A DNA stretch of 57,196 nucleotides from a virus: positions 1-57,196 of IMG/VR virus record IMGVR_UViG_3300042691_013751; one strand, written 5' to 3'. Shown here in pieces: positions 19,623 to 56,294 of this stretch. Position 1 is the first letter of the stretch; every line of letters starts with the position of its first letter. The notes beneath the pieces are model-generated. The model saw only the letters and a program-made list of their open reading frames with translations, was not told the origin of the DNA and made no database searches. A program made the position numbers and the translations under genes.

Positions 19623-19885
19623 CAGTTATCACCATTCATTACGTTCAATAGGGCAGCAGCCCAATCTTGCCAGTTCTCATAGTTATAAGGGCTTGGGATG
19701 CCTTGATTTGTAAACACATCAATTGCCAAAAGGCCAACAGCCCAACTCTTCCATTCGATTTCACTGCCAGGTATTCCGAGTTGCTGTGCTGCATATTGCT
19801 CACAAAGCAAGCAAGCCCACTGCTCAAACTCCATGTGCCTTGGGTCATAAACAAGAGGCGATGGGACATCAAGTGTTGTAGCCAC
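19622..19885 (-). CDS. Small conserved structural-region protein (87 aa)
   Basis: An acidic, Trp-rich protein: PLVYDPRHMEFEQWACLLCEQ, EWKSWAVGLLAIDVF and NWQDWAAALL. Three W-centred helices are spaced evenly, a pattern I associate with small proteins next to nozzle genes in related phages. The start is uncertain: a GTG at 19885 keeps the conserved 'SPLxYDP' segment and overlaps the nozzle stop, whereas the first ATG is at 19834. The stop overlaps the next ATG (ATGA at 19621-19624 on the - strand). Function unknown, perhaps a tail accessory. Confidence 0.55.
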   Translation of the reverse strand: MATTLDVPSPLVYDPRHMEFEQWACLLCEQYAAQQLGIPGSEIEWKSWAVGLLAIDVFTNQGIPSPYNYENWQDWAAALLNVMNGDN

Positions 19886-22800
19886 GAGTATCACCAAAGT
19901 CTGCGCTAACAATAACCTTACCCATTTGATAGTCCCCTCCGGCAACGTTGGACACGAACTTCAATCTTAGCTCGCGCCGTTGTTCACGCAGGTCGATTTT
20001 AGTTGTTCCTGGCTCAAAAAGATAGGGGCCAGTTGTTTTATCTTCAGCCTGAGCATAGGGGCGGCCCGTCACATACAGCTCCATTTCGCCTTGCTGAATA
20101 AAGTCAGGCTCCAAGCGCTCAAGATGCAGCCAGCGATTTTCCCCCATAGGTGATGGCTGTGATGGTCCACCTGCCACCCACCCAAGGTCGCTTGTCTCAA
20201 AGGAGCTACGTATAGCATTTGATGCGGTGCCTTTGACTTCATCTGTGCCAATCTCATGCTGCCACAAACAAACAAAATCTGTCAATTGGTTGACAGTAAA
20301 CGCAAGGTTGGAGCCCCCAGGGACAGCAGCAGTCAGGACGTCGCCCACGGTGTAGCCTTGGCCTTTGTTGTCCACCAAGACGCTGGTGGCGATGCCCCCG
20401 GCGATGGTGATGGTGGCTGTTGCGCCAGACCCTGTGCCCCCAGTCAGGGGCTGGAACAGGTAGGACCCGTTGGTGTAGCCCGAGCCTGCATTGGTGATCG
20501 ACAGCTCGTTGATGCCGCCGACTGCGTCAACATCCGAAGAGGCGTTGATCGGGAAGCGGAACACCTGCGAGAAGTAACCGGCAGACCGACGGGCACCATC
20601 AACTTGCCCAGCGTCGTACCAGACGTTCTCACGCACGTTGTAGATGATGGCGTCATTGCACTCTTCAGCATCGCCACGAGGGTAGTACCACCAAATCTCA
20701 CCGAACCGAGGAACTTTGGTTGCCCAAACTTTTTGGCGCTGGCTGTAGTTCAAGTTGTCAAAGAACCAGTTCTGGTTCATCCCGTTGGGGATTTCTTTGA
20801 CCACACCGTTGTAGAGCAAAAACCGGTCCGTGCCAATCCAGTAGTAGATGCCGTCGTACTCGATGACGCACTGAGAGGACAGGATAGACGACTGCGAGGA
20901 GATGATGTCGTAGCGCCAGTATTGTGCAGGGGTTCCGGCGCCACCAATGTAGGACATACGTACCAAACTGTCCAAGCTCCAAAACAGGCCAGAAGGCGAG
21001 TTGGAGCCGCCACGAACCGGTAGGCCCTTAACAATTTTGCCTGTAGCGACGTTGACCTCGTTGGCATCTGGAGAGTTCCAGTCCGTTGGGTCGCCGGCGG
21101 CGCAGTTCTTCAAAAGACCTGCGTCGCCATAAACAACAACGTAGGGGTGCAAAGAAACTACACCGCCACTGACTGAGATGACGTCCCCAGTTGGGTTTGC
21201 GCCACCTGTGTCTTTTAGAGGCGCCACAGAGCTTCCTGAAACGTTGCCGTACAAGACAGGGGTGTCTTGCGTGCTATCAATCTCAACTAGGTTATGCCCG
21301 GGGTGCGCCAAAAGCAGATTGCTTTCGCCAAACACATTGTACAGAGAGTCAAATTGCCAAAGATTCTCATCACTTGCGGTAAAGCTTGAACCCACAGATG
21401 CGACTTGAATCGAAAACCCAGAGCTGGCAAACACAGTGGCGACTTCCACAGAAAAGCCTGCGCTTTGCGTAACCGAAATAACCCTGAATGCAAAGCCGCT
21501 GCTGGACATGACACCCGTCACCGGCACTGCAAAACCACTTGCATTACCCAGAGTTGCCACCGTAAAGGTAAAGCCAGCGCTGGCATACACAGTGCCAACC
21601 GGGATAGAGAAGCCAGAGCTTGTGACCACCGTTGCGACAGGCACAGCAAAACCGGTACTGGCGAAGACCGCAGAGACTGGCACAACAAACCCAGATCCAG
21701 TGCCGCCAATCGAGGTGGAGTTGGCCGACATGATGTTGCCGACGACAAAGCCACGCCCACGGCTCGTGATGGTCACGGTGGTAACCACCCCGCCAGCGAC
21801 CACAATCGTGGCCTGAGCGCCTGTTCCAGAGCCGCCAATGAGGTTAACTGTGGTGTAGGTGCCATTGGTGTATCCAGCGCCTCCAGTAATTGTTCCAAGC
21901 GTTTGGATGCCTCGCCCAATGATAGACGCACTGCAGGACAAAGAATCTGCTACAGTATAGTCATTGCCTTTGCTGGTAACGGTGACCGAGGCGACTGCAT
22001 TACTTGCAACCACAATGGTTGCCACTGCACCAGTACCAGTTCCTCCGGTCAGGGGAACACCTGTAAATGTCCCGTCTGTGTAGTTTGACCCTGCAGTGAT
22101 CGTGCCAAGAGTTCCAATACCATTGGTAAAGCCCCCAAGGTTTGTGGCGGCTGCGCTCATCGAGTCAGCAACGGTGTAGCCGACACCCCGAGAGGTCATT
22201 GTCACAGCCGTCACGTCGCCACCAACACCGACGGTGATGGTCGCCTGAGCGCCAGAGCCGGTTCCGCCTGTCAGGGGGACGTTGGTGTAGGTGCCGGGGC
22301 CGTAGTTCGAGCCACCAACCAGAGAGCCTGTTGTCAAGGTGTTGATGCCGTTGCCCAATGTGGCCGCAGCGGCACTGATTGCGTCAGCCACCGTATACCC
22401 CGAGCCAGCTGATGTGATGGTCACGGTGCTCACGGCGTTGCTTGAAACAACAATGGTGGCCTTGGCACCTGTCCCTGTGCCGCCAGTCAAAGTCACGTCG
22501 GTGTATGTGCCATTGGTGTAATTGGAGCCACCAGTGATGGCAGAGGTTGTGGCAATACCATTTGTCGAGCCTGCAAGAGTGGCACTCAGACTATCGCCTA
22601 CTGCGTACCCGACACCTTTTTCAACCAACTGAAAAGAAGAAACAATGCCGTTTGCAACAATAAGATTTGCAGTTGCGCCGGTTCCAGAGCCTCCGGTCAA
22701 TGGCGTATCGCGGTACACACCTATCGTGTAAAGTGATGTGCTGGCAACAGTTTGGCTATTGTTGATGTTGTACGTTCCAACGCCGCCTGAGCCACTACCA

Positions 22801-24431
22801 AAAGAAGTGATGGTTGTATCCGCGGCAACGTTTGTGCCAAAAACTGTTTGGCCTACAACCAACGCTCCAGCAGCCACAGTAGAAACAGTCATCACAGTCC
22901 CGGAGATAGAGGCGGTGAAGAACGCTGTTGTTGAATTGGTGTAATAGTTGCCTGGTGTAATGCCGCCAGTTGAGTTAATGATGCCACTCACGCCGCCAAT
23001 GTCTTCATTTGAGGCAGACAAAACGTCGTTGACAGCGTAGCCAAAGCCATCAGAGGTTAAGGTCACAGCACCTACCGAGCCAGTACGCAAGGCGGCTACA
23101 GCGCACTGAAAGCCTGTGCTTGTAGCCACTGTGGCGACAGCAACGTTAAAACCTGCACCAGCACCGCCAAGATTTGTGTTGGCTGTTGTCAGACTATCTG
23201 CAGCCGTATAACCCACCCCGGCGTAGGTCAAGGCTACTGCAATCACAATACCGCCAGATACAGTAATGGTTGCCCTTGCGCCAGTCCCTGTTCCACCGGT
23301 CAGGGTCACATTGGAGTAAATTCCGTTAGTGTAGCCCGATCCTCCGGTGATACCACCAAAGGTCAGGGCGCCGCTGCCAATGCTTCCTGCACTGCAAGAC
23401 AGTACGTCATTAACGGCGTAGTTATTTCCACCATAAGACACTGAAACGGCCACCACGTTACCGCCAGATACTGTGACAGTGGCCTTTGCTCCAGTACCAG
23501 CGCCACCTGTCAGCAAAACGTCTGGAAACGAGCCATTGGTGTAACCACTACCGCCAACGATGTTCTTCACAGACTGCACACCAGCGTCCAAGACCTCAAC
23601 GGTTCCTACAGCGCCAGTCCCAGACCCGCCAATAAATGTCACGTCAGTATAGGTGCCTGGTTCATACAATGAGCCCCCAAAAATTTGACCGTAGGTGCTA
23701 ATGATCCCGGTTAAGCCACCAATGTTTGCAAGTGCCGCAGAAAGGGTATCGGTGTCTACATACCCAACACCGCGGTCTTGCGCAACTACACCCGTAACAG
23801 CGCCACCGGAGACCGTGATATTGGCTGTGGCGCCGGTCCCAGTGCCGCCTGTCATAGGCACACTTAGGTAAGAGCCATCTGAGTATAAGACTCCACCTGT
23901 AATTGCGCCATACGTTGAAACACCACTACCAATAGAAGATGCAGCCGCAGAAAGCGTGTCGCCTACCAAATACCCATTGCCAGTTGTGGTGATGTCAACA
24001 GCCGACACACCATTTGATGCCACTGTGATTGTGGCCTTGGCGCCATTACCCGTGCCACCTGTTAAAGGAATATTGGTATACGTTCCATTCGTGTAACCAG
24101 ACCCAGGCACAAGAGATCCAAAAGTAGCTATGGATGAAGCGTACGCAAAATCAATGATGCCCGCGCCAACGCCATTGTTGTTGATTGTTAGCGTCTGAAG
24201 TCCGTTGTTGTAGCCATTGAAGATGCGGTTAAAGCCGTTTGCTGCTTCAAGATAGATGCCACGAGAAATACCCGAAAGATCACAAGTAATCTCGCGATAT
24301 CCGCCAATTTTCCTTGGGCGGCCTCGCTGGAAGCGAGTCCATTCGCCATCAACATAAACCTCTTTGTCAAAGAGAGTGCCGTCCCGCTGAATGCCGGGCT
24401 TGGTGTCGAGGGCAAATACTTTTTTTGTCAT
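19869..24431 (-). CDS. Tail nozzle (gp10/gp12-like) protein with large repeat insertion
   Basis: 1520 residues. The first ~100 (KPGIQRDGTLFDKEVYVDGEWTRF, split here by eye: GIQRDGT then GEWTRFQRGRPRKIGGYRE) and the last ~480 residues form the propeller-like nozzle core seen in podoviruses. Telltale segments are ENLWQFDSLYNVF, LLLAHPGH, SLDSLVRMSYIG, YDGIYYWIGTDRFLLYNG and WATKVPRFGEIWWYYPRG. Between them, about 910 residues are beta-repeats, and one more copy lies near residues 1305-1385. The nozzle closes the tail tip and guides DNA out; the repeat arm may project outward as an adhesin. ATGA overlap with the upstream fibre gene fixes the start. Confidence 0.75.
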   Translation of the reverse strand: MTKKVFALDTKPGIQRDGTLFDKEVYVDGEWTRFQRGRPRKIGGYREITCDLSGISRGIYLEAANGFNRIFNGYNNGLQTLTINNNGVGAGIIDFAYASSIATFGSLVPGSGYTNGTYTNIPLTGGTGNGAKATITVASNGVSAVDITTTGNGYLVGDTLSAAASSIGSGVSTYGAITGGVLYSDGSYLSVPMTGGTGTGATANITVSGGAVTGVVAQDRGVGYVDTDTLSAALANIGGLTGIISTYGQIFGGSLYEPGTYTDVTFIGGSGTGAVGTVEVLDAGVQSVKNIVGGSGYTNGSFPDVLLTGGAGTGAKATVTVSGGNVVAVSVSYGGNNYAVNDVLSCSAGSIGSGALTFGGITGGSGYTNGIYSNVTLTGGTGTGARATITVSGGIVIAVALTYAGVGYTAADSLTTANTNLGGAGAGFNVAVATVATSTGFQCAVAALRTGSVGAVTLTSDGFGYAVNDVLSASNEDIGGVSGIINSTGGITPGNYYTNSTTAFFTASISGTVMTVSTVAAGALVVGQTVFGTNVAADTTITSFGSGSGGVGTYNINNSQTVASTSLYTIGVYRDTPLTGGSGTGATANLIVANGIVSSFQLVEKGVGYAVGDSLSATLAGSTNGIATTSAITGGSNYTNGTYTDVTLTGGTGTGAKATIVVSSNAVSTVTITSAGSGYTVADAISAAAATLGNGINTLTTGSLVGGSNYGPGTYTNVPLTGGTGSGAQATITVGVGGDVTAVTMTSRGVGYTVADSMSAAATNLGGFTNGIGTLGTITAGSNYTDGTFTGVPLTGGTGTGAVATIVVASNAVASVTVTSKGNDYTVADSLSCSASIIGRGIQTLGTITGGAGYTNGTYTTVNLIGGSGTGAQATIVVAGGVVTTVTITSRGRGFVVGNIMSANSTSIGGTGSGFVVPVSAVFASTGFAVPVATVVTSSGFSIPVGTVYASAGFTFTVATLGNASGFAVPVTGVMSSSGFAFRVISVTQSAGFSVEVATVFASSGFSIQVASVGSSFTASDENLWQFDSLYNVFGESNLLLAHPGHNLVEIDSTQDTPVLYGNVSGSSVAPLKDTGGANPTGDVISVSGGVVSLHPYVVVYGDAGLLKNCAAGDPTDWNSPDANEVNVATGKIVKGLPVRGGSNSPSGLFWSLDSLVRMSYIGGAGTPAQYWRYDIISSQSSILSSQCVIEYDGIYYWIGTDRFLLYNGVVKEIPNGMNQNWFFDNLNYSQRQKVWATKVPRFGEIWWYYPRGDAEECNDAIIYNVRENVWYDAGQVDGARRSAGYFSQVFRFPINASSDVDAVGGINELSITNAGSGYTNGSYLFQPLTGGTGSGATATITIAGGIATSVLVDNKGQGYTVGDVLTAAVPGGSNLAFTVNQLTDFVCLWQHEIGTDEVKGTASNAIRSSFETSDLGWVAGGPSQPSPMGENRWLHLERLEPDFIQQGEMELYVTGRPYAQAEDKTTGPYLFEPGTTKIDLREQRRELRLKFVSNVAGGDYQMGKVIVSADFGDTRGYNT
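21385..24120. repeat. Protein-coding tandem repeats within the nozzle gene
   Basis: On the - strand about ten degenerate units of 60-75 codons are visible, each with GSGYTNGTYTNVPLTGGTG-like start, GAKATITV strand and GYTVGDTLSA-like end. They are followed by about nine short units of roughly 15-17 codons with the pattern VxxSxGFxVPVATV (21385-21700). A separate single copy of the long unit sits at about 20285-20510. Copies differ at many bases, so the array is old or under diversifying selection. Confidence 0.85.
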
Positions 24432-43029: not shown

Positions 43030-45589
43030 CAGGTGCTCCTAAGGTAGGTTGTTGCATTTGCTGACTCAGAGTTGCCTGAATCGCATTTTGCGCGTCAATA
43101 GCAGTTTTGAACTGCTCATGCTGCAGGCTCGCAGCATCTTTAGTCAGCTCAGCCGACTTAATTCTTTCCTGCGTAAGGTTATTCTCAGTGTTCTTGGCCA
43201 TCTCAATCTGCTTGCCAAGCATGAACTCCTGATTGTCCTGCTGCAGCTCAACGGTTTTGATCTGGATTTCAGCCTGATCCTTGGCGGCGCGGCGTTGCGT
43301 CTCGGCCATGCTTGTCTGCACAAAGGCTTGAGTTGCAGGATCCATGGGTGGGCTACCAGACAATTGCTGAATAGCGGCCATTGCTTGCTTAATGACTTCA
43401 CCAATGGGGCCAAGCTGCGCTTGCGTGTCTTGGTGAACGTGCTGACCAACAGCTGCCAGCAGCTGGTCTGCTTGCCCTGGCAGTGATTGCTCTTTCATAA
43501 CGTTGAAAGGTCGCTGTAAGGCAACGCTTGCATAGCTATCAACCTGGTTCAAGTACCACAAAGCCAAGTGCTGCTTCAAGTGCTCAAGGCAGTTAGGTAT
43601 GAACATCTTGGCCATGATGGGATTAGCACCATACAACGGGTCTTGCAAGTAGCTGAGGTGCATTTGAATATGCGCCAAATGATCCTGTTGTGGGAATGCG
43701 CCTACTGGCTTGCCAAGCGTCATGGCTACGTTTTCCAACGCCGGGTTCATCTCTTTAACGTTGGCCGGATCAGGCAGAACTTCGTTAATGTCAGGCAACT
43801 TGAGCTGCTTAAGGATACGCTTCTCAACGGCCAAGCGGTTGTACAAGTCAGGGTTAGCCTGGGCACGTGCTGCCAAAGCTTGAATCTGCGCGTACCGCTG
43901 CGTCTCAGCAAAGATGTGCGGGTCAGACACCGGTATGATATCAGACTCGCGGTTGAAGTCATCTTTTTCAACGCCCAGGTCTCTAACCATCTCACCCATG
44001 CGCTGCTCATCAAAGTACCAGCGATTCAAGCGGTTGAGAATCTTAAGAACTCGAGCTTGGCTATTATGGATACGCGCGTGGATGGCTGAGAAGACCGCAG
44101 CGCCTTGCTCAATCAAAGCCTGTGTAGTACCTACAGGCGCGTTGGAATTGATGTCTGCGATCTTTTCCTCGGCGGTGGTGACCACACCCTTGGCTGCAGA
44201 GGTAACCCAACCCAGCAACTGGAACAACACCTGCGATGGTGGATTGAATGGCACAGGCATGGCAATCTTACGAATGTCATCCACACCAGGTGCGCCTTCA
44301 ATCTCCGAGACCTGCGTAGGCTCAATGCTGACAGACTGGCCAGAAATCTTGGCGCCTTTCAGCTTCAGCATGGTTGGCGCGTTGTTGATATGCGCGGAGT
44401 CCAGCAAAGCACGAAGCGTGCCGGTCAATGCTGCAGACAATCCACCAATGAGATGCGGCAAGCCAATGGCATATGCACCACGCCATGGAATGAACTTAAA
44501 CTCCACCAGCCAGTCAAGCTTGGCCATGGACTCATCGCCATCTTCCCAGTTACGATACAGGCCTACAACATCTCGTGTAGTCTCATCAATCATCAAGATG
44601 TAAGGCGCCCGCTCACCACTGGAGAACCTATCATCTTCCAGCTCAAGCCAAGTGTAGATGTGGTACACACGGCGCACACCGTCAATGTTATCTGCCTGTG
44701 GGGACTTGCCTTCGATCTTATTGTTGGCTTTTTGAGGCTTGGATTCTTCAGGCTCCATGCTTGTGCGATAGATCTCTACGTCGCAATAGAGTTTTCGCGA
44801 TACACGAAGCTCGAATTCTTCCTGCGTGATGTCATTGACCTCAGTCACGCGGCTGGCAGTGTAGAAGTTTGCCGCAGCAAAAGGCAAATACACGTTGTCA
44901 ATAGGCACAAACTCAGCGCAGGGGCGACGCTTTTGGTCGTCGTACCACATCTTCAGATACTGCGAACCGCCCAAAGGTTGCTGTGTTAGCAACTGCTCAA
45001 GCTCGTCGCGGTATTCTTCAATCTGCTCGGTCAATTGCCAGTTCATGTAGTCACGTTTGCGCTCGGCACGTATGACTTTCTCATCGGTAACCTCACCGAT
45101 GATCTTGGTTTTGACTGGCCCATCAACTGGGAATAGTTCTTTAATGGCGCGGGCTGAGAAGTCAACACAAGCCTCGGCCATGACTGGGTGCACAACCTTG
45201 GAAGCGCCGGTAAACTGAGCTCCGCCAGGCGCGTCATTGCCCAAGCCTGTACGCTTTAAGCCTTCTTCATATTGCTTATCACGTTCTTCACGAGCTTCTT
45301 TGTCTTTCTCAATGAGGTCCAGGTACTTAATGGCAATGTTGCCAAGGTCTGAGATGTTTAACGAGTCGGCTAAGTTCTCGTAAAAGTCAGGCGACTCATC
45401 GGGGCCTAAGATCTTGTCGTCAAGTCGAACAATGGCCGAGCCATCGGGAAGTTCCTCAACATCCGATGGGCCTGTGTCATCAAAGATCTCGAATATTGAG
45501 GGGTTGTCCTCTTCGTCAGACTGCGCTTCGTCTTCGATCGGGTCTATAAAGCGACCCGCATCTTGAGGAATTGGAAACTCGGTTGCCAT
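43022..45589 (-). CDS. Portal protein
   Basis: 855 residues, large for a portal but usual for this podovirus group. Diagnostic pieces: AREERDKQYEEGLKRTGLGN, AQFTGASKVVHPVMAEACVD, QQPLGGSQYLKMWYDDQKRR, LVEFKFIPWRGAYAIGLPHL and VTSAAKGVVTTAEEKIADIN. The C-terminal 150 residues are a long Gln-rich coiled coil (barrel and crown helices). It forms the dodecamer at the head vertex for packaging and tail joining. TAATG coupling with the 1616-residue gene upstream. Confidence 0.85.
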   Translation of the reverse strand: MATEFPIPQDAGRFIDPIEDEAQSDEEDNPSIFEIFDDTGPSDVEELPDGSAIVRLDDKILGPDESPDFYENLADSLNISDLGNIAIKYLDLIEKDKEAREERDKQYEEGLKRTGLGNDAPGGAQFTGASKVVHPVMAEACVDFSARAIKELFPVDGPVKTKIIGEVTDEKVIRAERKRDYMNWQLTEQIEEYRDELEQLLTQQPLGGSQYLKMWYDDQKRRPCAEFVPIDNVYLPFAAANFYTASRVTEVNDITQEEFELRVSRKLYCDVEIYRTSMEPEESKPQKANNKIEGKSPQADNIDGVRRVYHIYTWLELEDDRFSSGERAPYILMIDETTRDVVGLYRNWEDGDESMAKLDWLVEFKFIPWRGAYAIGLPHLIGGLSAALTGTLRALLDSAHINNAPTMLKLKGAKISGQSVSIEPTQVSEIEGAPGVDDIRKIAMPVPFNPPSQVLFQLLGWVTSAAKGVVTTAEEKIADINSNAPVGTTQALIEQGAAVFSAIHARIHNSQARVLKILNRLNRWYFDEQRMGEMVRDLGVEKDDFNRESDIIPVSDPHIFAETQRYAQIQALAARAQANPDLYNRLAVEKRILKQLKLPDINEVLPDPANVKEMNPALENVAMTLGKPVGAFPQQDHLAHIQMHLSYLQDPLYGANPIMAKMFIPNCLEHLKQHLALWYLNQVDSYASVALQRPFNVMKEQSLPGQADQLLAAVGQHVHQDTQAQLGPIGEVIKQAMAAIQQLSGSPPMDPATQAFVQTSMAETQRRAAKDQAEIQIKTVELQQDNQEFMLGKQIEMAKNTENNLTQERIKSAELTKDAASLQHEQFKTAIDAQNAIQATLSQQMQQPTLGAPDV

Positions 45590-48500
45590 TATTTACCCCG
45601 CATCATAATTTCAAATCGCATTTGCTCTACGCTCGGATTTTGCTTGACTATACCACCGTGTGCCTTGTTTATAAAGGCTCGACCTGGTATTTGTGTACGT
45701 GAAGCCCGCTCGGCTTCCATTTGAACCAATGCTTCCAACTCGGCTTGAGTCTTAGCACGTTGGCCAAGTTGCATGCCCATGGTGTTATTGTGCATGTCCA
45801 TGTCGTAGTCTCGAGGCATCTTGCCTCCGAACAGCGACTTAACGGCTTGCACGGGTGAAGTGGCCACCTCATGCGCTTTGCCTAAGAACTCCGCAGTGCC
45901 AGGCCCGTACTTACGTGTAAGGGTACCAGCTGCCAGCATATGTCGTGCTGCGTCACGCTGATCGTCTTGCCCCTTCTGACCTGGGTACATCTCATAGGCC
46001 ACAGTCTCCGAGTAAGTCGGAACACTAAATAGCCACGGGGTCTTAACTTCAGGCTTCTTTTTAACAGAACCGCCGGACTGGTAGCCTTCAGGCGCACCGC
46101 CACCAAGCTCACGTCGCGCAGACTCTAGCCGCTGAATGAAATACTCGCGCAACGCGGCAGACATAGTCTCACCCTCATCCGGCATCCACAACCCATAAAT
46201 CTCATCCTCACCATTGCGCAGCTCTTCAAGTGCGCGGGCAATCTCTCTATCAGCGTCAACGCTATCATCCATGTCCTCTACAGCGTCCATGAACTGCGTA
46301 GCGGCGTCATTGGCAGCTTCTTGCATTTGCGTAGAAAGTGCAACAGCAGGTGGTGCATTGTTATAGTGCTCATCAACTCTACGAGCCAGCAATTCACGTT
46401 GTGCGTGGTTAAAGTTTTCCCATTCACCCATAAGGTGATTGCGTATCAAGTCCACAATGCGAGGCAGGTCTTCACGGTCATTGACATCAGTAAGCTGATC
46501 TGCAAGGTTTTGCATATCATTTACTTGATCAAGATTCAGTACTGCGCCTACTTGATTCATAGTCGATAGCTGAACTACTGTGGGTATAGGGTCTCTACGC
46601 GCTATGTTTGCAGGCGCGGGGGCAGGTGCTTGGGCAGGCTGCTGCGCACGTTGCGCGGCCACAACCATGTTGTTAAAGTTATCCAGCACTCCACGCATAG
46701 CCTCTGCACGTACAGGGCCAGGCGGAATATCACGGTAGGCGGGGTGATCAAATTGTCCCATCTCCAACACGGTAGCCGTGTTCATAAGGTCTGGGAGATT
46801 AAGCGTGCCATCGCGATTGCGCCCCAGTTCAAGGAGCTCGGCTGCAACTTGTCGAGATTGCGCTGTTTCAAGCTGATCAGCCAAGTCATACAGTGCGCGT
46901 TCTACAAGCTCAGAAAGCTGATTGTTGGCAGCGTCGCGCAAAGCTGTGGCAAAGCCGCCTGGGTCAAGTCGAGGGTTAATGACCTCGGCAGTGCGTGCTG
47001 CAATAGTTTCTACACGCTCAGCAAGGTGAACGCCTTCGCTTCGCGCAAGGTCATCAATGATGCTATCACGCATACCCGTGTAGTCAATGGCAGGTATTGT
47101 TGCAGGTGCAGGCGCTGGTGCAGGCGCAGGCGCAGGCAAGTTAGCGCCATGCTGCATGTCAGGCTCAAACAGGTTGGCAAAGTTGAAGTTGTTAGCAGGG
47201 GCTTGTTGCGCCGCGCGTTCAGTGTCACCAATAATGACGGTCAGCAGTTGTGCTGCGTTCTCAGCCTGCGCATTAGTAAGACCCGCAAAGAAGGTGCCTC
47301 GTGCACGCTGCAACGCGTTATCACGCATAGCTGTTAAGTTGACCATTGTCATGTCGGGGTCACGCAAACGTGCCAGCATTTCTTCAACAGTGTCAAGCGG
47401 TATGTTGTAGACTGTTGCGTAATCATTCGCGTCAAGGCCGTTGCGAACGATGTCTTGCAAAGCCATTGACACAACTGCAGGTGCAGGAACCGGAGCTGGT
47501 GCCGGCAGCGGCACAACTTCACGCAAACGGCGATCATGGTAGTCAATGACGCCTTCTAAGTCAGTGATGAACTCAATGATCCCGTCGGAAATGCTGTTGT
47601 TAAACGTGCTGGTGGAGTTTGAGAATTGAAACTCATCATCCATGATTGCGGTTTGCAAACTGCGTAGTGCAGCAGGTATTTCTTCAGCGCGTCTGCCATC
47701 TAAGAATTCTGCTATACGCCCGCGTAAAACACCGCGCACAGCGTCGCCTACGCGCTCATTGTGCGCGTTTGCTGCGGAATCAGCAGCGTTGTTTATCGCA
47801 GACTCGATGCTTGTACGGGTATTTGTAAGTATCGTTTCGAGATTGCGATCATGCGCAAGACTTAGCTCAGTGCTTGCTGCAGGGGCTGCGACAGGTGGCG
47901 GTGCTTCAATTACAGCGCGTATTTGCTCTCTGGTCGCAAAGCGTGGAAGCTGCGATAAGTCCGCAGCTGCCACATCATCTTTGTACTTGCCTGTGAAATT
48001 GGCAAGCTCACGTGCTGACGAGTTCTTTATGTCAATTGCGCCAATATGCTCAAGGTTGTCACCAGCACTGCGAATCTCGTCTGCGCGGCTATTCAAGTAC
48101 GCAATCACGCCTTCATGATACTTAGGATCCACATCACCATTCTTAAAGCCTGACACGTAGCCTATGTTGTAGAGTGGCGCGCCGGGGCCGTATGACGACT
48201 TGTTAAACTCAAGCGTGGCTACGGGCAACCCTGTATTACCGTCGCGGATGTCTGCGATTTTTTGGTCACCAACAACAACGCGATCAGCGTAGCCGCTAAC
48301 TTGACGACCTACCATGTCATTAAGCTCACCAGTGGCGACGTTGTAAATAGGCAAATACGTGCGAGTGCTGCCTGGGCTCCATGGGTTCTTTACATCTCTG
48401 CCTGCGCTGCCGCCTTGACCAATGCAGTGATCCAGCACTGTAGTAGGCTCACTAAGGATACGCGTAACTTGTGCTGCATCCAGGCCACGTTCTTGTGAAA

Positions 48501-50439
48501 GCTCAATCACGGCGGTGTTGCCAAAGTAATCTCCACGCGTCGTATTTTGCAACATGGTGTTGCGCATCGCGGTTTCTGCGTCTGTCTTAAACGTGAGTTG
48601 CTTCTTTGCTGCTTCTTTCTCTTTAGCAATACGCGGTATTGCTTTGTCACGTACGTACTTATCAACTGACAGCTTTGAGACTTGCGCAACAGGGATCTTA
48701 CCTGACATGACGTCGTTGTAGAAGTCACGGGCAATGTCCTGCAACCCAATGTCTCGCAGCCTGTTTTGACTGCCCATGTTGTAGATGATGTCGTCTGGGC
48801 GTGCCCGTGTAACAGAAGGGTAGAACTGCTGCTTTGAGTAGTCCATGTCACTTAGCACACTTTCACGCGTCTTAGGTGTTACTGCCCAATCGGACACGTC
48901 TTCGTACAGCGCACCAACCTTAAGGTTGTCATACTCTTCTTGAAGCTTAGTGACAGCTGCTGTTGCCTGTGCAATTGGGCGCGTAGTTCGTGCATACTCA
49001 GGCAATTGCGCGGGATCCTCCAAACCTTGCTGCAAAGCAATATCACGGTAGCCTTCACGCTGTTGCTGCAAAGCTTGCAACGCTTCCTGTGCCTGCGTAA
49101 GCTCTGCTTGCTTAGCGTTCAGTGCCGGTTGCATCATGCCTTCAGCAGGCAAGTTAGACATGTCGCGGCGTTTTACAAGGTCAACGCGGTTGATCTCGTA
49201 GTCCGCAGTCTCTTGCAAGCGATCAGGCGGAATGTACGTAATGCCTTGCGAAGCGAGCTTAACCAAGGGGTCACCCACAGAGCCAACATGCTTACGCATG
49301 TAGTTCATCAATGGGCCATGCAGCCACTGTGCTGCTGCTTCATGACGTGCCTGTAGCTCAGCAGGGGGTGGCACACGACTAAGATCAGATGCTTGGCCTT
49401 CAGGCGTCTGCATGAAGTCATTTAGCCACCCCAACTCCACTGCATTAAAGTCTTCACTATTACTGTAGCGAGCCCTAACAGCTTCCAATGCGGCATCACC
49501 ATATGGCGCGTCTGGGTATAACTCCATAGCACGCGCAGCTGCGTATTGCCTAAAAGGCGTGGCGTCTGCGTTGGCGTCAATGCGTCTTGCGTCCCATTGC
49601 TGCATCAAATCGCCAGGCTGCAATGTCGGGTAATACTCGTTAACGACGTCGTTTATCATTCTACGCGGAGTCGAATTTCGTGGCATTTCTTCTGCACGCG
49701 TTGTCGCTGGATACTGCGGCGTTGCAATGGTCGAGCCTGAGGGCCGCACGGCGTATGTGCGTGTCTCAGGCGTAAGGACGCCAGGCACGCCGGGTACGGG
49801 ACTTAAGCCTGCGTCTCTACGGGATTGCGCCAAGTCGCCAATGCTGTCAGCCACGCCCTGTAGCTTGGCGCCGTACGTAGGCTGGTTGGTGACCGGGTCC
49901 ATGCGCGTAAAGCCAGATTGCGCGTTGGCAAAGTCGGAGGGAATGTCCTTAATCCCTCGAGCCACTCGCGTGGCTTCAGCGCCCATAACGCGTACGTCGT
50001 TAGGGGTTACCACTGGGCGCCTGCCGGCAGGGCGTGCCAACAACCCCATGTGCGGCACCTTGGCCACATCCATCGCCTTGCCTAAGCTTTCCTCAAACAT
50101 CTGACCTACGGGTGTGACTGGGCGCTGGGCCAACGCGGAGCCCGTGATCTTGTTGCCTTGTAATCCCTCTACTGCGATGCTTGCAGGCGTAAGTAGCGGG
50201 TTAATGATGGCCGTGTTCACCACGTCCCGCATGGTCTTCATCATCATCAGCGGATTCAGACTTGCCGCTACGGACTTGATGTTGAGCTCTGCTTGGTCAA
50301 GCGGCCGATTGGGTGGGGGCGCTTTGACATTGCTGCCGGGGATCTGCGATACCAAGCTCGGTTGCTTGGTCAATGCGAGCCGCATCTGATCGAGATCAGG
50401 ATCGCGGGGTTCGTAGATGCCAAATTCGTTATACGCCAT
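45589..50439 (-). CDS. Giant virion-associated protein of unknown function (1616 aa)
   Basis: Placed between large terminase and portal. Regions: N-terminal 400 residues Pro-containing and mixed; a coiled coil near 450-520; a globular middle (DYFGNTAVIELSQERGLDAA, DHCIGQGGSAGRDVKNPWSP, GDQKIADIRDGNTGLPVATL); Pro/Ala linkers (APAPVPAPA-type) separating helical bundles; and a final domain QGKDDQ-like QKGQDDQRDAARHMLAAGTL ... YDMDMHNNTMGMQLGQ. The last domain resembles 'D-RDA-RH ... HE ... DM-NN' small enzyme-like domains with His/Asp pairs. It may be ejected into the host. An 11-base overlap links it to terminase. Confidence 0.6.
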   Translation of the reverse strand: MAYNEFGIYEPRDPDLDQMRLALTKQPSLVSQIPGSNVKAPPPNRPLDQAELNIKSVAASLNPLMMMKTMRDVVNTAIINPLLTPASIAVEGLQGNKITGSALAQRPVTPVGQMFEESLGKAMDVAKVPHMGLLARPAGRRPVVTPNDVRVMGAEATRVARGIKDIPSDFANAQSGFTRMDPVTNQPTYGAKLQGVADSIGDLAQSRRDAGLSPVPGVPGVLTPETRTYAVRPSGSTIATPQYPATTRAEEMPRNSTPRRMINDVVNEYYPTLQPGDLMQQWDARRIDANADATPFRQYAAARAMELYPDAPYGDAALEAVRARYSNSEDFNAVELGWLNDFMQTPEGQASDLSRVPPPAELQARHEAAAQWLHGPLMNYMRKHVGSVGDPLVKLASQGITYIPPDRLQETADYEINRVDLVKRRDMSNLPAEGMMQPALNAKQAELTQAQEALQALQQQREGYRDIALQQGLEDPAQLPEYARTTRPIAQATAAVTKLQEEYDNLKVGALYEDVSDWAVTPKTRESVLSDMDYSKQQFYPSVTRARPDDIIYNMGSQNRLRDIGLQDIARDFYNDVMSGKIPVAQVSKLSVDKYVRDKAIPRIAKEKEAAKKQLTFKTDAETAMRNTMLQNTTRGDYFGNTAVIELSQERGLDAAQVTRILSEPTTVLDHCIGQGGSAGRDVKNPWSPGSTRTYLPIYNVATGELNDMVGRQVSGYADRVVVGDQKIADIRDGNTGLPVATLEFNKSSYGPGAPLYNIGYVSGFKNGDVDPKYHEGVIAYLNSRADEIRSAGDNLEHIGAIDIKNSSARELANFTGKYKDDVAAADLSQLPRFATREQIRAVIEAPPPVAAPAASTELSLAHDRNLETILTNTRTSIESAINNAADSAANAHNERVGDAVRGVLRGRIAEFLDGRRAEEIPAALRSLQTAIMDDEFQFSNSTSTFNNSISDGIIEFITDLEGVIDYHDRRLREVVPLPAPAPVPAPAVVSMALQDIVRNGLDANDYATVYNIPLDTVEEMLARLRDPDMTMVNLTAMRDNALQRARGTFFAGLTNAQAENAAQLLTVIIGDTERAAQQAPANNFNFANLFEPDMQHGANLPAPAPAPAPAPATIPAIDYTGMRDSIIDDLARSEGVHLAERVETIAARTAEVINPRLDPGGFATALRDAANNQLSELVERALYDLADQLETAQSRQVAAELLELGRNRDGTLNLPDLMNTATVLEMGQFDHPAYRDIPPGPVRAEAMRGVLDNFNNMVVAAQRAQQPAQAPAPAPANIARRDPIPTVVQLSTMNQVGAVLNLDQVNDMQNLADQLTDVNDREDLPRIVDLIRNHLMGEWENFNHAQRELLARRVDEHYNNAPPAVALSTQMQEAANDAATQFMDAVEDMDDSVDADREIARALEELRNGEDEIYGLWMPDEGETMSAALREYFIQRLESARRELGGGAPEGYQSGGSVKKKPEVKTPWLFSVPTYSETVAYEMYPGQKGQDDQRDAARHMLAAGTLTRKYGPGTAEFLGKAHEVATSPVQAVKSLFGGKMPRDYDMDMHNNTMGMQLGQRAKTQAELEALVQMEAERASRTQIPGRAFINKAHGGIVKQNPSVEQMRFEIMMRGK

Positions 50440-51856
50440 ACGGGTTCACCCTTTGCTTGCGGTCCTCTGCATACGAGTCTTCGGCATTGTAAACCGGATC
50501 GATGTTTATGAACCCTAGATCTCGCATTATGCGCAGTGCTTGTGTTGTGGAGTCTACCAGGTCGTCGTGCCGAACCTCGGGGAAGGCGCAGATCTGGCTA
50601 ACCAGGGTCTCTGCCCAATCACGCGCCATGCCCGGATTGACCGAGGACTCGGGAATGTAGACACGCCCACGTTCGATGATGGGGGCTACCAAGTTAAGTC
50701 GTGTCGTCTTATCTGCCATGCCTGGGTTGTAGCTTCTCACAGGCAGGCCGGCACGCTGTAAGTCCTGGATCAGTGAGATCCCGGCGGACTTGTCTTCGAT
50801 TAAGATCATGTCCACCTTCTTCCCATGGCCGAACTCGTTCTCATCACCGTAGATGGCGCCGTATTCCTCGATCACCTTAGGCCGAAGCTCAGGGTACTGC
50901 ATGTACTCCTCCCAGCAATCGATGAGCATGACACTCATAGGCTTGTCAGCGTTGGGCTTAAAGATACCCCACACGGTGCAGGCCGTGGGATCGTTCTTGG
51001 TCTTGTCCGATGTGGCGCAGTCGTAGGACTGGATGATGTACTCAAAGCGGGGCAGCGGCTTCTCATTCTCCCACAGGCGGAACCAGTCACGCTTGATGAT
51101 GCCGGCTTCTTCCGGATCGATGATCTCGGCGTGAATCTCTTGGCGCCCAAGCTTGGTGCCCTCATACTGAAGGATCTGCTTTTGGAATGTAGGTGCCAGG
51201 TTGTTGATGTTGTCGTACGTGCTGGCTGTGGTGAGTACCACATCCTCACTCTCCCGCCCCACCAGATCAATGATCAAGGGCTTTGGCTTTGGTGTTGTGG
51301 TGCATATAAGCCGAGGGCGTTGCCCCAGTCGCATGCCAAAGTTCAGCATGTCCCATGAGTCGTCCAAGTAATCCCAGGCAGCCAGCTCATCCAGCCACCC
51401 ACCATGGAACTGCGGACCTCGGAATCGGTTAGGCTCCGATGCCGGGATCCCCTTGATGATGGAGCCATTGATCAGCTTGATCTCGTGCAAGGACTTGATG
51501 TAGTCCGCAATGAGTATCTCTGGAATAACACGAAGGAGACCTGAGTCTCCCTCAAAGCACACATCACGGACATCCGAGCTGGTAGGCGCGGAGACCAACC
51601 ACCGCGTACCCGGGTTAGACCACGCCTCCCACCAAGTCCACTCGGCTGCGCACCGAGTCTTGCCTGCGCCTCGACCTGCGAGCAACAGCCAGATCGTCCA
51701 CCACTCACCTCGAGGCGGGATCTGATGGAAGTTGGCAATGGTGAGCCACTTCATTCGCGCCTGAGTCGCGGCTTTATGCTCAGGTGATAGTTTGTTAAGA
51801 TCAGGCCCCGCCTTGATGCGGGCCGCAATCTCACTTGCCTTTGCTGGGCTTAGCAT
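50429..51856 (-). CDS. terL: Terminase large subunit
   Basis: 475 residues. ATPase: Walker A GRGAGKT (61-67), Walker B GGWLDE (152-157), coupling motif CTTTPK (185-190). RNase H-like nuclease: Asp279 in QSYDCA, Asp355 in LIEDKSAG, and the HDDLVDS cluster (430-436). It pumps DNA into the procapsid through the portal and cuts concatemers. It overlaps the small subunit by 26 bases. All key residues are present. Confidence 0.95.
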   Translation of the reverse strand: MLSPAKASEIAARIKAGPDLNKLSPEHKAATQARMKWLTIANFHQIPPRGEWWTIWLLLAGRGAGKTRCAAEWTWWEAWSNPGTRWLVSAPTSSDVRDVCFEGDSGLLRVIPEILIADYIKSLHEIKLINGSIIKGIPASEPNRFRGPQFHGGWLDELAAWDYLDDSWDMLNFGMRLGQRPRLICTTTPKPKPLIIDLVGRESEDVVLTTASTYDNINNLAPTFQKQILQYEGTKLGRQEIHAEIIDPEEAGIIKRDWFRLWENEKPLPRFEYIIQSYDCATSDKTKNDPTACTVWGIFKPNADKPMSVMLIDCWEEYMQYPELRPKVIEEYGAIYGDENEFGHGKKVDMILIEDKSAGISLIQDLQRAGLPVRSYNPGMADKTTRLNLVAPIIERGRVYIPESSVNPGMARDWAETLVSQICAFPEVRHDDLVDSTTQALRIMRDLGFINIDPVYNAEDSYAEDRKQRVNPYGV

Positions 51857-52301: not shown

Positions 52302-52351
52302 GGTGCAATTGTACTCCTATTGTCGAAAAAATGTACATCAGGCCTCAACCG

Positions 52352-52527
52352 GTAACAGGTAACTAGTAACAACCAAGCCAGAAAACGCTATATATACGAA
52401 TAGCATATATCTATATTTCTATAACTATAATTTATATTTTAGTAGTTACCTACTGTTACTCTGTTACTATTCAATCCAGCAAAGGCTTCCAGAGGTTACA
52501 GCTCGAGTAACAAAATCTCCAAGTAAC
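52352..52527. repeat. GTAAC/GTTAC iterons around an AT-rich core
   Basis: GTAAC at 52352, 52359 and 52366 (exact 7-base period); GTTAC at 52445, 52455 and 52463; GTTAC at 52495; GTAAC at 52507 and 52523. The first set is direct, the second inverted, and they contain a 9-base inverted pair AGGTAACTA (52357-52365) and TAGTTACCT (52443-52451). Confidence 0.7.
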
Positions 52528-52565
52528 ACCTCTTATAGCCCAAAAAAGCCCGGTTTTATGCAAAC

Positions 52566-52611
52566 TGATCACTTTCTATTTCGGAAAAAAAGTTGTAATA
52601 GAAGGTGATCA
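52566..52611. repeat. Inverted repeat (14-base arms)
   Basis: TGATCACTTTCTAT (52566-52579) and ATAGAAGGTGATCA (52598-52611) are inverted copies with one mismatch, separated by 18 mostly A/T bases. It can form a stem-loop or be a protein-binding site. No U-tract follows on either strand. Confidence 0.75.
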
Positions 52612-52706
52612 ATTTGCTGTGGCACTCACGGGTCAGTCGCTTAATGCAGCTTATTTTCAGCATTTAGCATCTTATTTTGGCTCAAAAGTAACAATCCCTT
52701 TGCCCC

Positions 52707-54794
52707 TCAAAAGCTGCCATCTTGCTGCAATTCACGTTGCAATGCAGTCTCCGTGTCCTTAACAACGTGCGCCCAGGTAGGCTCGCCTCTGCCTTTTTGT
52801 GCAGCATCCTCAGTAATAAGTGTAGTAAACCTTGCCGGCTTGCCTTGCGCCTTGATCAGCCTGCTAGGCTCAACGGACCCTTGCGACTCCATAGCTTTGC
52901 GGATATAGTGCACCTTGGCCCGGCTGTCATGTCCCCATCTTTCACAGAGGACTTGCAACTGCGATGCCGTGAAAGCTCCTACGCCATCAAGATGCTCGTT
53001 GACCCAGTCCTTGAGTTCGTAGGCAAAAACCTCGAGTGGAGTCTTAGACAATTGGATGGCCTTTTCGCGGTACTGGGTTTTAGGTGCTGCCTTTTTCAAG
53101 TCAAAGCTCGATATGTCTCGGTTCATGTACCAATTTAGCATGATGCCAAAGCCTTGTTGCTGTGTGGCCCATTGCATGAGGTCCGTGACCTTGGGGTGCG
53201 TCTCGGCGTTGGTTAGGCTTTTGGGGCTATAGATAGCTTCGCGGCGTGAAGTATCCCCCATGTGCGTGATGTAAGGCTTATTGGACGTGAAGACAAAGTT
53301 CAGGTAGTTCCTGATGCTGTACTGCGCGCCGTACTTGTTGTTGATCGTGAGCTCATCGCTGGTGATGTAGTTCTTAAGCTTCGCCGAGTGGTCATCACGA
53401 TCAGACGAGGGCTCATTCACAACGATAAAGATCTTACCCTTTAGCATGCCGTTGAAGTTGCCAAACAGCTCATCCGGACCAATCACCGCAGCCGGTTGGC
53501 CTTCCCCAACGCCGAGCATGCTGGCTACAAACTCCGCGATGGCCGATTTGCCAATACCCTCAATGGCGGACACGAACTGTGGCGTGGTGTAGTTCCTTCG
53601 CCACGGGAATTGTATGATATTGGCTACCCAATCATGCCAGTACTCGGCAAAAGCGGGCTCATCCCTAAAAAAGTAGTCACAAAAGTCAAGGTAAGGCCGT
53701 GGGTCACCGCTTACCGGCTCGTTGGTCCAGTTTTTGAACAGGTTATACTGCCTGGTTGGTGTGATGGTCATCCCCTGGTACTCGGGGAACATGCCCACGC
53801 CATCCAGATCACATCTTCTGGTCCAGTCCTTATAGGCATCCAACATGTAGATGGTTTTGCTGCTGGTGCCACCGTTAGGCTTGGCCGTGACTTGCACGAA
53901 GAAGTCCTGCGCCGAGTCAATCCGCGCCTTGCTCCACTGTAGCAGTAGCCCGTCCCTAAGCCGCATGACATCACCATTCAGCAATGCGTACTTGGTTTTG
54001 AACTCATACAGCTTGGTTTCCAAGGTATCGATGCCGTTCATCACGGCGCTGGTTGCTGTGAGTACCTGAGCCAGTTGGCCGCCTGACAGCAGGTGATCAT
54101 CAATGGCGTATTTGCTACCCTTACCGGACCCGAACTTGCCCACACGGCAAAGGTGGACCTCAGCCCCTAGACCCCTTAAGGTCACAGCCAGGCGGGTTTC
54201 TGCCATGCCAACCTGCTCATTAGGCTCGCCATCGGCCTCGGCCCCATCGTAGTCGAAGACAATATAGACCTTGCGGTGCTTCTCAGCAAAGCTACTCTTC
54301 CGCTGCCAAATGATCTTCATCAGGTCCTTGTGTAGGTGCAAGCCCGATTTGTCAGTCCATGAGGTGACCCCGGCCAAGCCCACGGCGGCGTAGGCCAAGC
54401 CATCTGCCGTGATTTGCTTGGTAAGCTGCCAGGCCTTGAACTCACCCTCCGTAATGATAATGGGGATATCCACGTCCTGCATGACCTGTTTCCAAGCCAC
54501 ACCGGGGGCGAAGTACACATGAGAGCCCGATGCTCTAGGCTGAGAGTACTTCATCTTGCCCTTAGGCGTTAGAATCCTGACGCGGTTGAAGCCGGTTTCA
54601 AGGCCATCTGTGCCGTAATACGGGAGTTTTACACTCCACTCACGAGTATGACCTAATAGTGCATAGGTTTCATCGGGGTCGAGCAGCGCAAGGCCTAAGC
54701 TTTGCACATCGACGTCATTGAATTGTCTAGCAGTTAAGAAGTTTTGGTATAATTGGTCTGGTTGTGTTGTTTGTGCTGCAAAGCCGGATAGCAT
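52707..54794 (-). CDS. Primase-helicase (TOPRIM plus SF3/DUF5906 ATPase)
   Basis: 695 residues. The N-terminal half has a TOPRIM-type domain: IIITEGEFKAWQLTK (catalytic Glu), GLAGVTSW and VYIVFDYDGAEADG (Asp pair), as in DUF3854 primases. The C-terminal half is a superfamily 3-like ATPase: Walker A AIEGIGKSAIAEF (about 406-418), Walker B KIFIVVNEP (about 450) and motif C YLNFVFTSNKP (about 500), followed by a winged-helix-like end (FTASQLQVLCERWGHDSRAK). It would unwind the origin and prime synthesis for the polymerase at 3324. AAAGGA lies six bases before the ATG. It is transcribed alone, opposite to other replication genes. Confidence 0.85.
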   Translation of the reverse strand: MLSGFAAQTTQPDQLYQNFLTARQFNDVDVQSLGLALLDPDETYALLGHTREWSVKLPYYGTDGLETGFNRVRILTPKGKMKYSQPRASGSHVYFAPGVAWKQVMQDVDIPIIITEGEFKAWQLTKQITADGLAYAAVGLAGVTSWTDKSGLHLHKDLMKIIWQRKSSFAEKHRKVYIVFDYDGAEADGEPNEQVGMAETRLAVTLRGLGAEVHLCRVGKFGSGKGSKYAIDDHLLSGGQLAQVLTATSAVMNGIDTLETKLYEFKTKYALLNGDVMRLRDGLLLQWSKARIDSAQDFFVQVTAKPNGGTSSKTIYMLDAYKDWTRRCDLDGVGMFPEYQGMTITPTRQYNLFKNWTNEPVSGDPRPYLDFCDYFFRDEPAFAEYWHDWVANIIQFPWRRNYTTPQFVSAIEGIGKSAIAEFVASMLGVGEGQPAAVIGPDELFGNFNGMLKGKIFIVVNEPSSDRDDHSAKLKNYITSDELTINNKYGAQYSIRNYLNFVFTSNKPYITHMGDTSRREAIYSPKSLTNAETHPKVTDLMQWATQQQGFGIMLNWYMNRDISSFDLKKAAPKTQYREKAIQLSKTPLEVFAYELKDWVNEHLDGVGAFTASQLQVLCERWGHDSRAKVHYIRKAMESQGSVEPSRLIKAQGKPARFTTLITEDAAQKGRGEPTWAHVVKDTETALQRELQQDGSF

Positions 54795-54882: not shown

Positions 54883-55168
54883 TCGTGTCTGTACCGGTCT
54901 TTGTTTCCATCTTGTCAATAGTCAAAAGCATCAGTCAGCTCGCAATGTTGTTGGTGAGGATGTGCCGCAAACAATGTGGCTGCTGAATGCCATAAGGTTT
55001 GCGGTTTGTGATTGTACAACGCACCACGTCTACTGTTACCTGCCACATAAAATAAAGTTTTGTGAAGAAACCAAAGTATACATCGCGACTTAGAGTTGAA
55101 AACAAACTTATAGATTTGTAACAGAACTGCAACTTTTTTCGTATTTTTGTGTGCAAATTCACGAGTCG
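54883..55168. other. Divergent intergenic region
   Basis: No convincing gene. It contains an inverted repeat CCGCAAAC (54965-54972) / GTTTGCGG (54997-55004) with a 24-base loop, and AT-rich sequence to the right (55040-55160). It separates the leftward primase gene from the rightward DUF932 gene, so it should carry the primase promoter on the - strand; I see no clear -35/-10 there. Confidence 0.5.
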
Positions 55169-55244
55169 TGTTATACAATCCACTCACAGCAACAAACTTC
55201 AGATTGCTGTAACAACCAACTTGACTATTGAAAAGGAATACATC
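55169..55244 (+). promoter_or_regulatory. Promoter and conserved leader of the DUF932 gene
   Basis: TGTTATACAAT (55169-55179) matches the CGTGTTATA core of the promoters near 1700 and 10760. The leader copy TTGACTATTGAAAAGGAATA (55221-55240) ends in AAAAGGA, five or so bases before the ATG at 55245. About 50 untranslated bases separate them. Confidence 0.55.
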
Positions 55245-56207
55245 ATGGCACACGAAATCGCAACCACCATCCAAGGCAAAGCAGCAATGGCTTACGTCGG
55301 TGCAACTCCTTGGCACGGCCTTGGCCAGCAGCTGACAGCTGATTCTTCCCTTGAGACCTGGGCCACCGAGTCCGGCCTGGATTTCCAACTGGCTACTGCC
55401 GATGTGCAGTATACTCCTCCAGCCAGCGTGTGGAACGGCTACAAGGCGCAAACTCTGCCCTTCGGCGGCAAGAAAGTCATGTACCGCACCGACAGCAACC
55501 TGCCCCTCGGCTTGGTGTCCAACCAGTACAAGATCGTGCAGCCCATCGAGGTGCTGGAATTCTTCCGCGACATGGTCGGCAGCATTGCCCACCTGGAAAC
55601 AGCCGGCGTCCTGCGCAATGGCGCTCATTATTGGGCCCTCGCCAAGATGGATGGCGAGTTCAACGTGGCCGGTGATCAGGTCAATCAATATTTGCTCCTT
55701 GCCTCCAGCTGTGATGGCTCCTTGGCCACACAGGCAAGGTTGACCAGCGTCCGCGTTGTGTGCAACAACACTCTGCAGTTGGCAACTGGCAAGTCCGGCC
55801 AAGTCGTTCAAGTGCGCCATAACAGCACCTTCAACGCCGCCAATGTCAAGTCGCAACTCAGCGACTTCAACGACGCTTTCAAGAACTTCGAGCACACGGC
55901 CAAGTTCCTGGCCAACATCAAGCTCAGCTCCGCGCAGGCACAAAGCGTCTTCACCTCCATCCTCGGCGGCGATGATAAGAAACCTAGCCGTGCTGCAGCT
56001 CGTGCACTGACCTTGTTCGAAGGCGCAGGCATCGGCGCCGAGTTAGAGTCGGCCAAAGGCACAGCATGGGGCGCGCTCAACGCCGTCACTCAGCTGATGG
56101 ATTGGGAAACCGCTCGTACCGGCGATGCGCGGTTGGCCAACGCCTGGTTCGGCGGTGGCGTTAACGTAAAAGCCAAAGCAACCGAAGCCCTGTTGGCTCT
56201 GGCCTGA
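55245..56207 (+). CDS. DUF932 phage/plasmid-like protein
   Basis: 320 residues. AYVGATPWHGLGQQL, SGLDFQLATADVQYT, YRTDSNLPLGLVSNQYKIVQ and LTSVRVVCNNTLQLATG are hallmarks of the DUF932/TIGR03299 family, widespread in phages and plasmids. Its molecular role is unknown. Codons end in C or G more than in neighbouring early genes, as expected for high expression. The ATG at 55245 is fixed by the leader's ribosome binding site; the frame extends further upstream only through non-coding leader. The stop TGA forms part of the next promoter. Confidence 0.85.
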   Translation: MAHEIATTIQGKAAMAYVGATPWHGLGQQLTADSSLETWATESGLDFQLATADVQYTPPASVWNGYKAQTLPFGGKKVMYRTDSNLPLGLVSNQYKIVQPIEVLEFFRDMVGSIAHLETAGVLRNGAHYWALAKMDGEFNVAGDQVNQYLLLASSCDGSLATQARLTSVRVVCNNTLQLATGKSGQVVQVRHNSTFNAANVKSQLSDFNDAFKNFEHTAKFLANIKLSSAQAQSVFTSILGGDDKKPSRAAARALTLFEGAGIGAELESAKGTAWGALNAVTQLMDWETARTGDARLANAWFGGGVNVKAKATEALLALA

Positions 56208-56218: not shown

Positions 56219-56294
56219 GCTTCTGTAGCTCAACGGTTAGAGCAGTGGACTCATAATCCATTGGTTGTAGGTTCAAATCCTGCCAGAAGCACCA
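56219..56294 (+). tRNA. tRNA with CAT anticodon (Met or Ile2), CCA encoded
   Basis: Full cloverleaf: acceptor GCTTCTG/CAGAAGC (7 bp perfect), D stem GCTC/GAGC, anticodon stem GTGGA/TCCAT with loop CTCATAA, T stem GTAGG/CCTGC with loop TTCAAAT, discriminator A, encoded CCA. The anticodon CAT reads AUG, or AUA if C34 is modified by host TilS. The acceptor starts with a G-C pair, so it is not an initiator of the usual C-A type. Confidence 0.93.

Follow-up and report, generated by a model that had tools for sequence, protein, structure and literature searches.

The alpha protein of P4 combines primase, helicase and a C-terminal winged-helix origin-binding domain in one chain, and its replication uses short iterons plus an AT-rich region (ori1 and crr), with crr lying away from ori1. 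The iterons of SaPI elements flank an AT-rich region. Regarding the proteins that read such repeats, SaPI Rep uses its C-terminal domain to read iterons lying immediately downstream of rep (summary in PMC7581432), and the same report describes a C-terminal domain of SCCmec Cch2 that binds 5-nt iterons (AAGTG) directly downstream of its own gene, these iterons being needed for Cch2 helicase activity (PMC7581432). For the Nitratiruptor phage NrS-1 (AB746912), the known priming motif TTTGGTTA was determined experimentally (PMC8718748), and the structure paper assigns the tail region of the polymerase to a novel fold, the only origin sites that it discusses being an 8-nt sequence present twice (PMC7102993).

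The locus described here belongs to a 57,196-bp IMG/VR phage record, the whole of which is referred to as the window. It contains an array of short repeats around an AT-rich core which, on comparative sequence evidence, is very probably the replication origin of the phage, read by the phage's own primase-helicase in a manner like that of the SaPI, SCCmec and P4 systems.

Array, AT-rich core and neighbouring genes

The array lies in a 405-bp gap (52302-52706) with the primase-helicase gene on one side and terS on the other. The features of the locus, and two genes elsewhere in the window that are referred to below, are as follows.

3324-5186: phage Pol I-type polymerase
50429-51856, minus strand: terL, terminase large subunit, 475 aa
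51831-52301, minus strand: terS, terminase small subunit, 156 aa
52308-52337, minus strand: promoter-like TGTACA-N18-TACAAT, its end 6 bases short of the terS ATG
52352-52371, plus strand: terS-side triad (GTAACA 52352-52357, GTAACT 52359-52364, GTAACA 52366-52371), facing the core
52357-52451, no strand: 13-base inverted repeat spanning the core, arms 52357-52369 and 52439-52451
52372-52444, no strand: AT-rich core, 77% AT, proposed DNA unwinding element
52381-52396: conserved element GAAAACGCTATATATA (reverse strand TATATATAGCGTTTTC) inside the AT-rich core
52445-52467, minus strand: primase-side triad (52445-52449, GTAACA 52454-52459, GTAACA 52462-52467), facing the core
52495-52528, plus strand: distal triad (52495-52499 degenerate, GTAACA 52507-52512, GTAACA 52523-52528)
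52560-52617, no strand: hairpin with 21-base arms (90%), possible terminator, between the primase gene and the array
52688-52693, plus strand: tenth GTAACA, role uncertain, 13 bases off the primase gene end
52707-54794, minus strand: primase-helicase, 695 aa, DUF3854 and DUF5906 (DnaG-like primase, SF3-type helicase) with a C-terminal winged helix
52812-53039, minus strand: codons 586-661, C-terminal winged helix (AlphaFold2), proposed origin-binding domain
52851-52859, minus strand: codons 646-648 (Leu646, Lys648), wing residues that track hexamer bases 3 and 1, respectively
55149-56207: DUF932-like (TIGR03299) protein

The first-pass annotation had reported nine GTAAC/GTTAC pentamers within about 180 bases in three groups of three, and this is borne out by their positions (52352, 52359 and 52366; 52445, 52455 and 52463; 52495, 52507 and 52523; span 52352-52528), with a tenth copy at 52688. 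The three sites left of the core have the exact 7-base period that had been described and the three on its right are inverted, so placed that the sites flank the core from both sides and the core-adjacent sites face it. The oriented repeat unit is the hexamer GTAACA, which refines the pentamer. The interval between the first two triads, which the same annotation had called an AT-rich core, takes in most of the most AT-rich 70-base stretch of the whole record (52391-52460). The 9-base inverted pair noted previously is present but was described too short, since it is part of the 13-base pair listed above (92% identity between the arms).

Regarding other signals in the gap, the promoter-like element ends so close to the terS ATG that its transcript would be nearly leaderless, and terS transcription may thus be leaderless, although promoter-like elements do not exceed the number expected by chance. 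The hairpin at 52560-52617 was not scored as an intrinsic terminator; the gap is only about 220 bp in most relatives and is longer in the window, which has this hairpin. No Rfam match was obtained at the array and no direct terminal repeat was detected in the record. The DnaA box TTATNCACA was not detected in 52302-52706 and was found in seven of 105 relatives, which neither helps nor hurts the case for a self-loading initiator.

The primase-helicase matches PF19263 with 69 bits (cut-off 27.6), which places an SF3/AAA+ helicase beside the array. AlphaFold2 confidently models the C-terminal 120 residues as a winged helix, with the order H-E-H-H-E-E at residues 586-661. Winged-helix proteins match this tail model at Z of about 5 only, and a Foldseek search with it gave no strong PDB match (E about 0.1); the P4 origin-binding domain is absent among the matches listed, which bears neither way. 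For the full-length model, the primase-helicases of NrS-1 and SaPI5/PriRep1 rank among the best Foldseek matches, and the SaPI structures 7ola, 7om0 and 7pds are among its matches. TerS carries a helix-turn-helix.

Elsewhere in the window, a tRNA-Met (CAT) gene lies on the plus strand at 56219-56294, just downstream of the DUF932-like gene, and very large open reading frames occupy the minus strand at 45589-50439 (1616 aa, with a C-terminal DUF6973), 19869-24431 (1520 aa) and 15336-19622 (1428 aa).

Layout and hexamer classes in relatives

Relatives were collected by scanning viral contigs, many of them metagenomic fragments, with TerL, TerS and the primase, which yielded about 100 distinct loci with the order primase-helicase, gap, terS, terL. 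These share a common layout between the primase-helicase and terS genes, consisting of distal sites, a core-facing triad, the AT-rich core, an inverted triad facing back, and TAnAAT just before the terS ATG, that is, triad, triad, AT core and inverted triad. The distal sites of the window are kept, the place and inward orientation of its terS-side triad are common to the relatives, and a TATATAG..TTTTC element of the AT core is retained across the motif classes. Left of the core 198 of 256 sites point right and right of it 161 of 178 point left, in tallies that take in sister sequences and use an automatically picked core. The first-pass annotation had proposed an origin with initiator sites and an unwinding element, a proposal that absence of the repeats from close relatives was to refute; the repeats are present there and the layout is kept, which supports that reading. 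In loci of the L075 and L136/L137 types, small ORFs or unrelated sequence lie between the array and terS.

Outside this group, no GTWAC array was detected upstream of terS or between terS and terL in MW202545 (a TerL relative at 63%, with no primase match), nor a clear array in the stretches examined around more distant primases (Stenotrophomonas and Pseudoxanthomonas phages, MW202621). About 85,000 bacterial and archaeal genomes were searched and returned only distant relatives, the longest matches having 26-28% identity, and thus no host or prophage was identified.

The repeat word differs between relatives. Four hexamer classes were found, GTAACA (the class of the window), GTTACA, ATTACA and GATACA, and nearly all sites in each phage are of one word, a typical phage having four to nine copies of its own hexamer and few or none of the others. 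The change from one word to another is thus concerted over all sites.

Covariation and joint exchange of array and primase-helicase tail

Two columns in the primase-helicase wing covary with the hexamer. The first of these, 646, belongs to the first wing strand and holds L in 32 of 32 distinct proteins of the GTAACA class and in 0 of 48 others, where it is V, M or A (25 of 25 GTTACA), N, P, A or S (21 ATTACA) or T (2 GATACA). Column 648 is K or R in all classes with G as first base, and T, S or N in the ATTACA class. Control for descent was provided by a tree of 80 tips computed from primase residues 1-570, with the tail excluded, on which base 3 of the hexamer switches six times. Column 646 assigns base 3 correctly at each of the 80 tips, and of the 695 primase columns it alone has a change on every one of the six switch branches (the next best has one on five); when six branches were drawn at random, weighted by length, 0 of 200,000 draws lay entirely on branches where 646 changes. 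As tips are not independent, it is these branch counts and not the tip counts that carry the argument. Regarding base 1, column 648 makes no errors once an ATTACA clade of 12 phages is left out, and co-changes on two of three alignable switches; column 661 separates base 1 as well as 648 does. The clade left out has a wing insertion, and columns 646 and 648 of the full-length alignment were dropped for it because two alignments place the insertion differently and the columns could not be aligned with confidence; with the tests rerun in this way the result for 646 was unchanged. In this clade (L048, L052, L054, L072, L116, L122, L124 and relatives) the wing is longer and differently built. The covariation points to the primase-helicase tail as the reader of the array.

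A natural experiment is provided by two phages, L149 (GTAACA) and L014 (GTTACA), whose TerS proteins are identical (0 differences in 156 residues) and whose primases have 15 differing residues, of which ten fall within 645-670. Over most of the primase gene L014 resembles L149 (87-98% per 100 bases), towards the end of that gene and through the array it is closer to L058, a GTTACA phage (83-90% versus 70-85% to L149), and from just before terS it again resembles L149 (96-98%). By these identities, recombination exchanged the array and the adjoining end of the primase gene as a single block, which stops short of terS. Identical TerS proteins with opposite hexamers are strong evidence against TerS as the reader.

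Among more distant phages, the primase of L248 has the wing residues T646/R648 and no sites downstream of its gene. Since this wing is that of the GATACA class, the L248 record was searched for this word; it has two forward GATACA pairs and one inverted pair upstream of terS, at a distance of 4.7 kb. In L251, at 40% identity to the L140 query, the primase carries M646/K648, which fits the GTTACA array with an AT-rich stretch found 2.4 kb from its gene and separated from terS by a GIY-YIG-like gene (L287:4515-5126). In L254 (wing N/K) the array is absent from the 13-kb record. In NrS-1 the tail aligns weakly (hmmsearch 1.7 bits for the stretch; VIA Z 5.0) and on this weak alignment gives V646/K648, which fits GTTACA; 11 of the 21 GTTACA sites in the genome lie at 17062-17377, directly after the primase stop codon, ten before an AT-rich stretch and one inverted after it. 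The priming motif TTTGGTTA has one exact match in the NrS-1 genome, inside this array. The arrays of L251 and NrS-1 were found by unbiased hexamer scans and not from wing residues, and therefore serve as consistency checks. An annotated ORF, NRS1_29 (17055-17456), overlies the GTTACA array and the AT-rich stretch of NrS-1, and may not be a real gene but a false call made over the origin.

Proposed origin and comparison with known systems

Four other explanations of the array were weighed against an origin read by the primase-helicase. The pentamer count was dropped as proof and is weak evidence by itself, since at least nine copies of some pentamer within 190 bases occurred in 37 of 200 Markov-simulated genomes and the same count was reached in 87 of 2000 local shuffles; nevertheless, the chance accumulation of so short a word in AT-rich sequence is effectively excluded, because motif, number, spacing, orientation and layout, together with the concerted change, are kept in about 100 relatives. 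Reading by some other DNA-binding protein is highly improbable. One candidate for it would be the DUF932-like protein, which the first-pass annotation had named beside the primase-helicase as a possible binder; it is encoded in this region of the record, and in L251-L254 a DUF932-like gene comes after that for the primase. Against it, covariation with a single wing residue of the primase-helicase is near perfect and the tail of that protein is exchanged together with the array. Of the two binders named, the data favour the primase-helicase, the site word covarying with its winged-helix tail and not with TerS.

The position of the array bears on two further explanations. A pac or cos packaging site bound by the TerS of the adjacent gene could account for the fact that nearly all relatives have the array immediately upstream of terS, for its place beside terS in L248 though the primase gene lies elsewhere, and for the helix-turn-helix of TerS; nonetheless, it is improbable. 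TerS as reader was ruled out by the L149/L014 pair and by the column test, in which even the best TerS column assigns base 3 wrongly at 9 of 80 tips and no TerS column changes on more than four of the six switch branches, and loci L141-L146, which have a TerS relative and no detected primase, have only 0-1 GTWAC sites upstream. An operator, by which the primase-helicase or another regulator would control terS and the late genes while replication starts elsewhere, is unlikely but slightly less so, as an array just upstream of terS makes a regulatory role for late genes possible. The interval from the array to the terS ATG holds the promoter-like element with the conserved TAnAAT, the covariation found for the primase tail names a reader and not a purpose, and the L248 array, which stays beside terS with the primase gene elsewhere, is a counterpoint to the origin reading. 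Against an operator stand the inward-facing site groups around the most AT-rich 70 bases of the record, which are the layout of an origin, the separation of array and terS in L251 (by the GIY-YIG-like gene) and in L075-like phages (by an ORF), and the use of such arrays as origins or putative origins by helicase-attached readers in SaPI and SCCmec.

Taking the array as the replication origin, and by analogy with those systems, the C-terminal winged helix of the primase-helicase would bind the iterons facing the AT core from both sides, with wing residues 646 and 648 determining which base stands third and which first, respectively. Helicase domains could then assemble over the two inward-facing triads, melt the core and load on both strands, and initiation at the array would follow with the attached DnaG-like primase laying the first primers for the phage Pol I-type polymerase. 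Residues 646 (base 3) and 648 (base 1) probably constitute a readable origin code, common to a large family of uncultivated phages and NrS-1, the specificity of which switches by recombination of a block of a few hundred bases with the wing codons and the whole array.

Such a reading would locate the origin and name its reader in a widespread group of uncultivated phages, and would make origin choice by a self-loading initiator directly testable, as single substitutions predict which of the four hexamers is bound. Sites and reader changing together in one small block would explain how specificity can switch without a dead intermediate. For the well-studied NrS-1 polymerase, it suggests where the origin may lie and that the tail, so far unexplained, may bind DNA. 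The system is of a known kind; the residue-base correspondence and the block exchange appear to be new, on a partial check of the literature.

Regarding the known kinds of system, the array does not have the features of RepE/TrfA-type iteron plasmids, the repeat unit being 6-8 bp rather than about 20 bp and the DnaA box being absent from the gap, nor those of a pac or cos site, as its sequence does not track TerS. The P4 iteron GGTGAACAG resembles GGTAACAG, and the window protein differs from P4 alpha in falling below the cut-off of the curated P4-family primase model TIGR01613 (24.3 versus 108.7 bits). NrS-1 is similar in its helicase domain, the top structural and sequence match of the window protein, in the gene order primase, small ORF, terS, terL, and in having the array directly downstream of the primase gene, but its N-terminal part is an archaeo-eukaryotic PrimPol and not DnaG-like. 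SCCmec Cch2 of Staphylococcus, a D5/SaPI5-like helicase with a putative origin, also has short iterons directly downstream of its gene; it differs in having three iterons, in belonging to an integrated element for which the report does not show replication in vivo, and in having its primase as a separate protein, and inward-facing triads around an AT core are not described in the available part of the report (PMC7581432). SaPI Rep, a self-loading initiator helicase with iterons downstream of its own gene, belongs to a satellite element of Gram-positive hosts, and the SaPI5 primase is of the archaeo-eukaryotic family whereas the N-terminal part of the window protein matches DnaG (1eqn). The locus combines several features of the SaPI/SCCmec type, namely an SF3/AAA+ helicase beside the array, a winged helix predicted by AlphaFold2, iterons directly downstream of the gene, which in two relatives lie 2.4-4.7 kb from it, and an AT-rich region that they flank.
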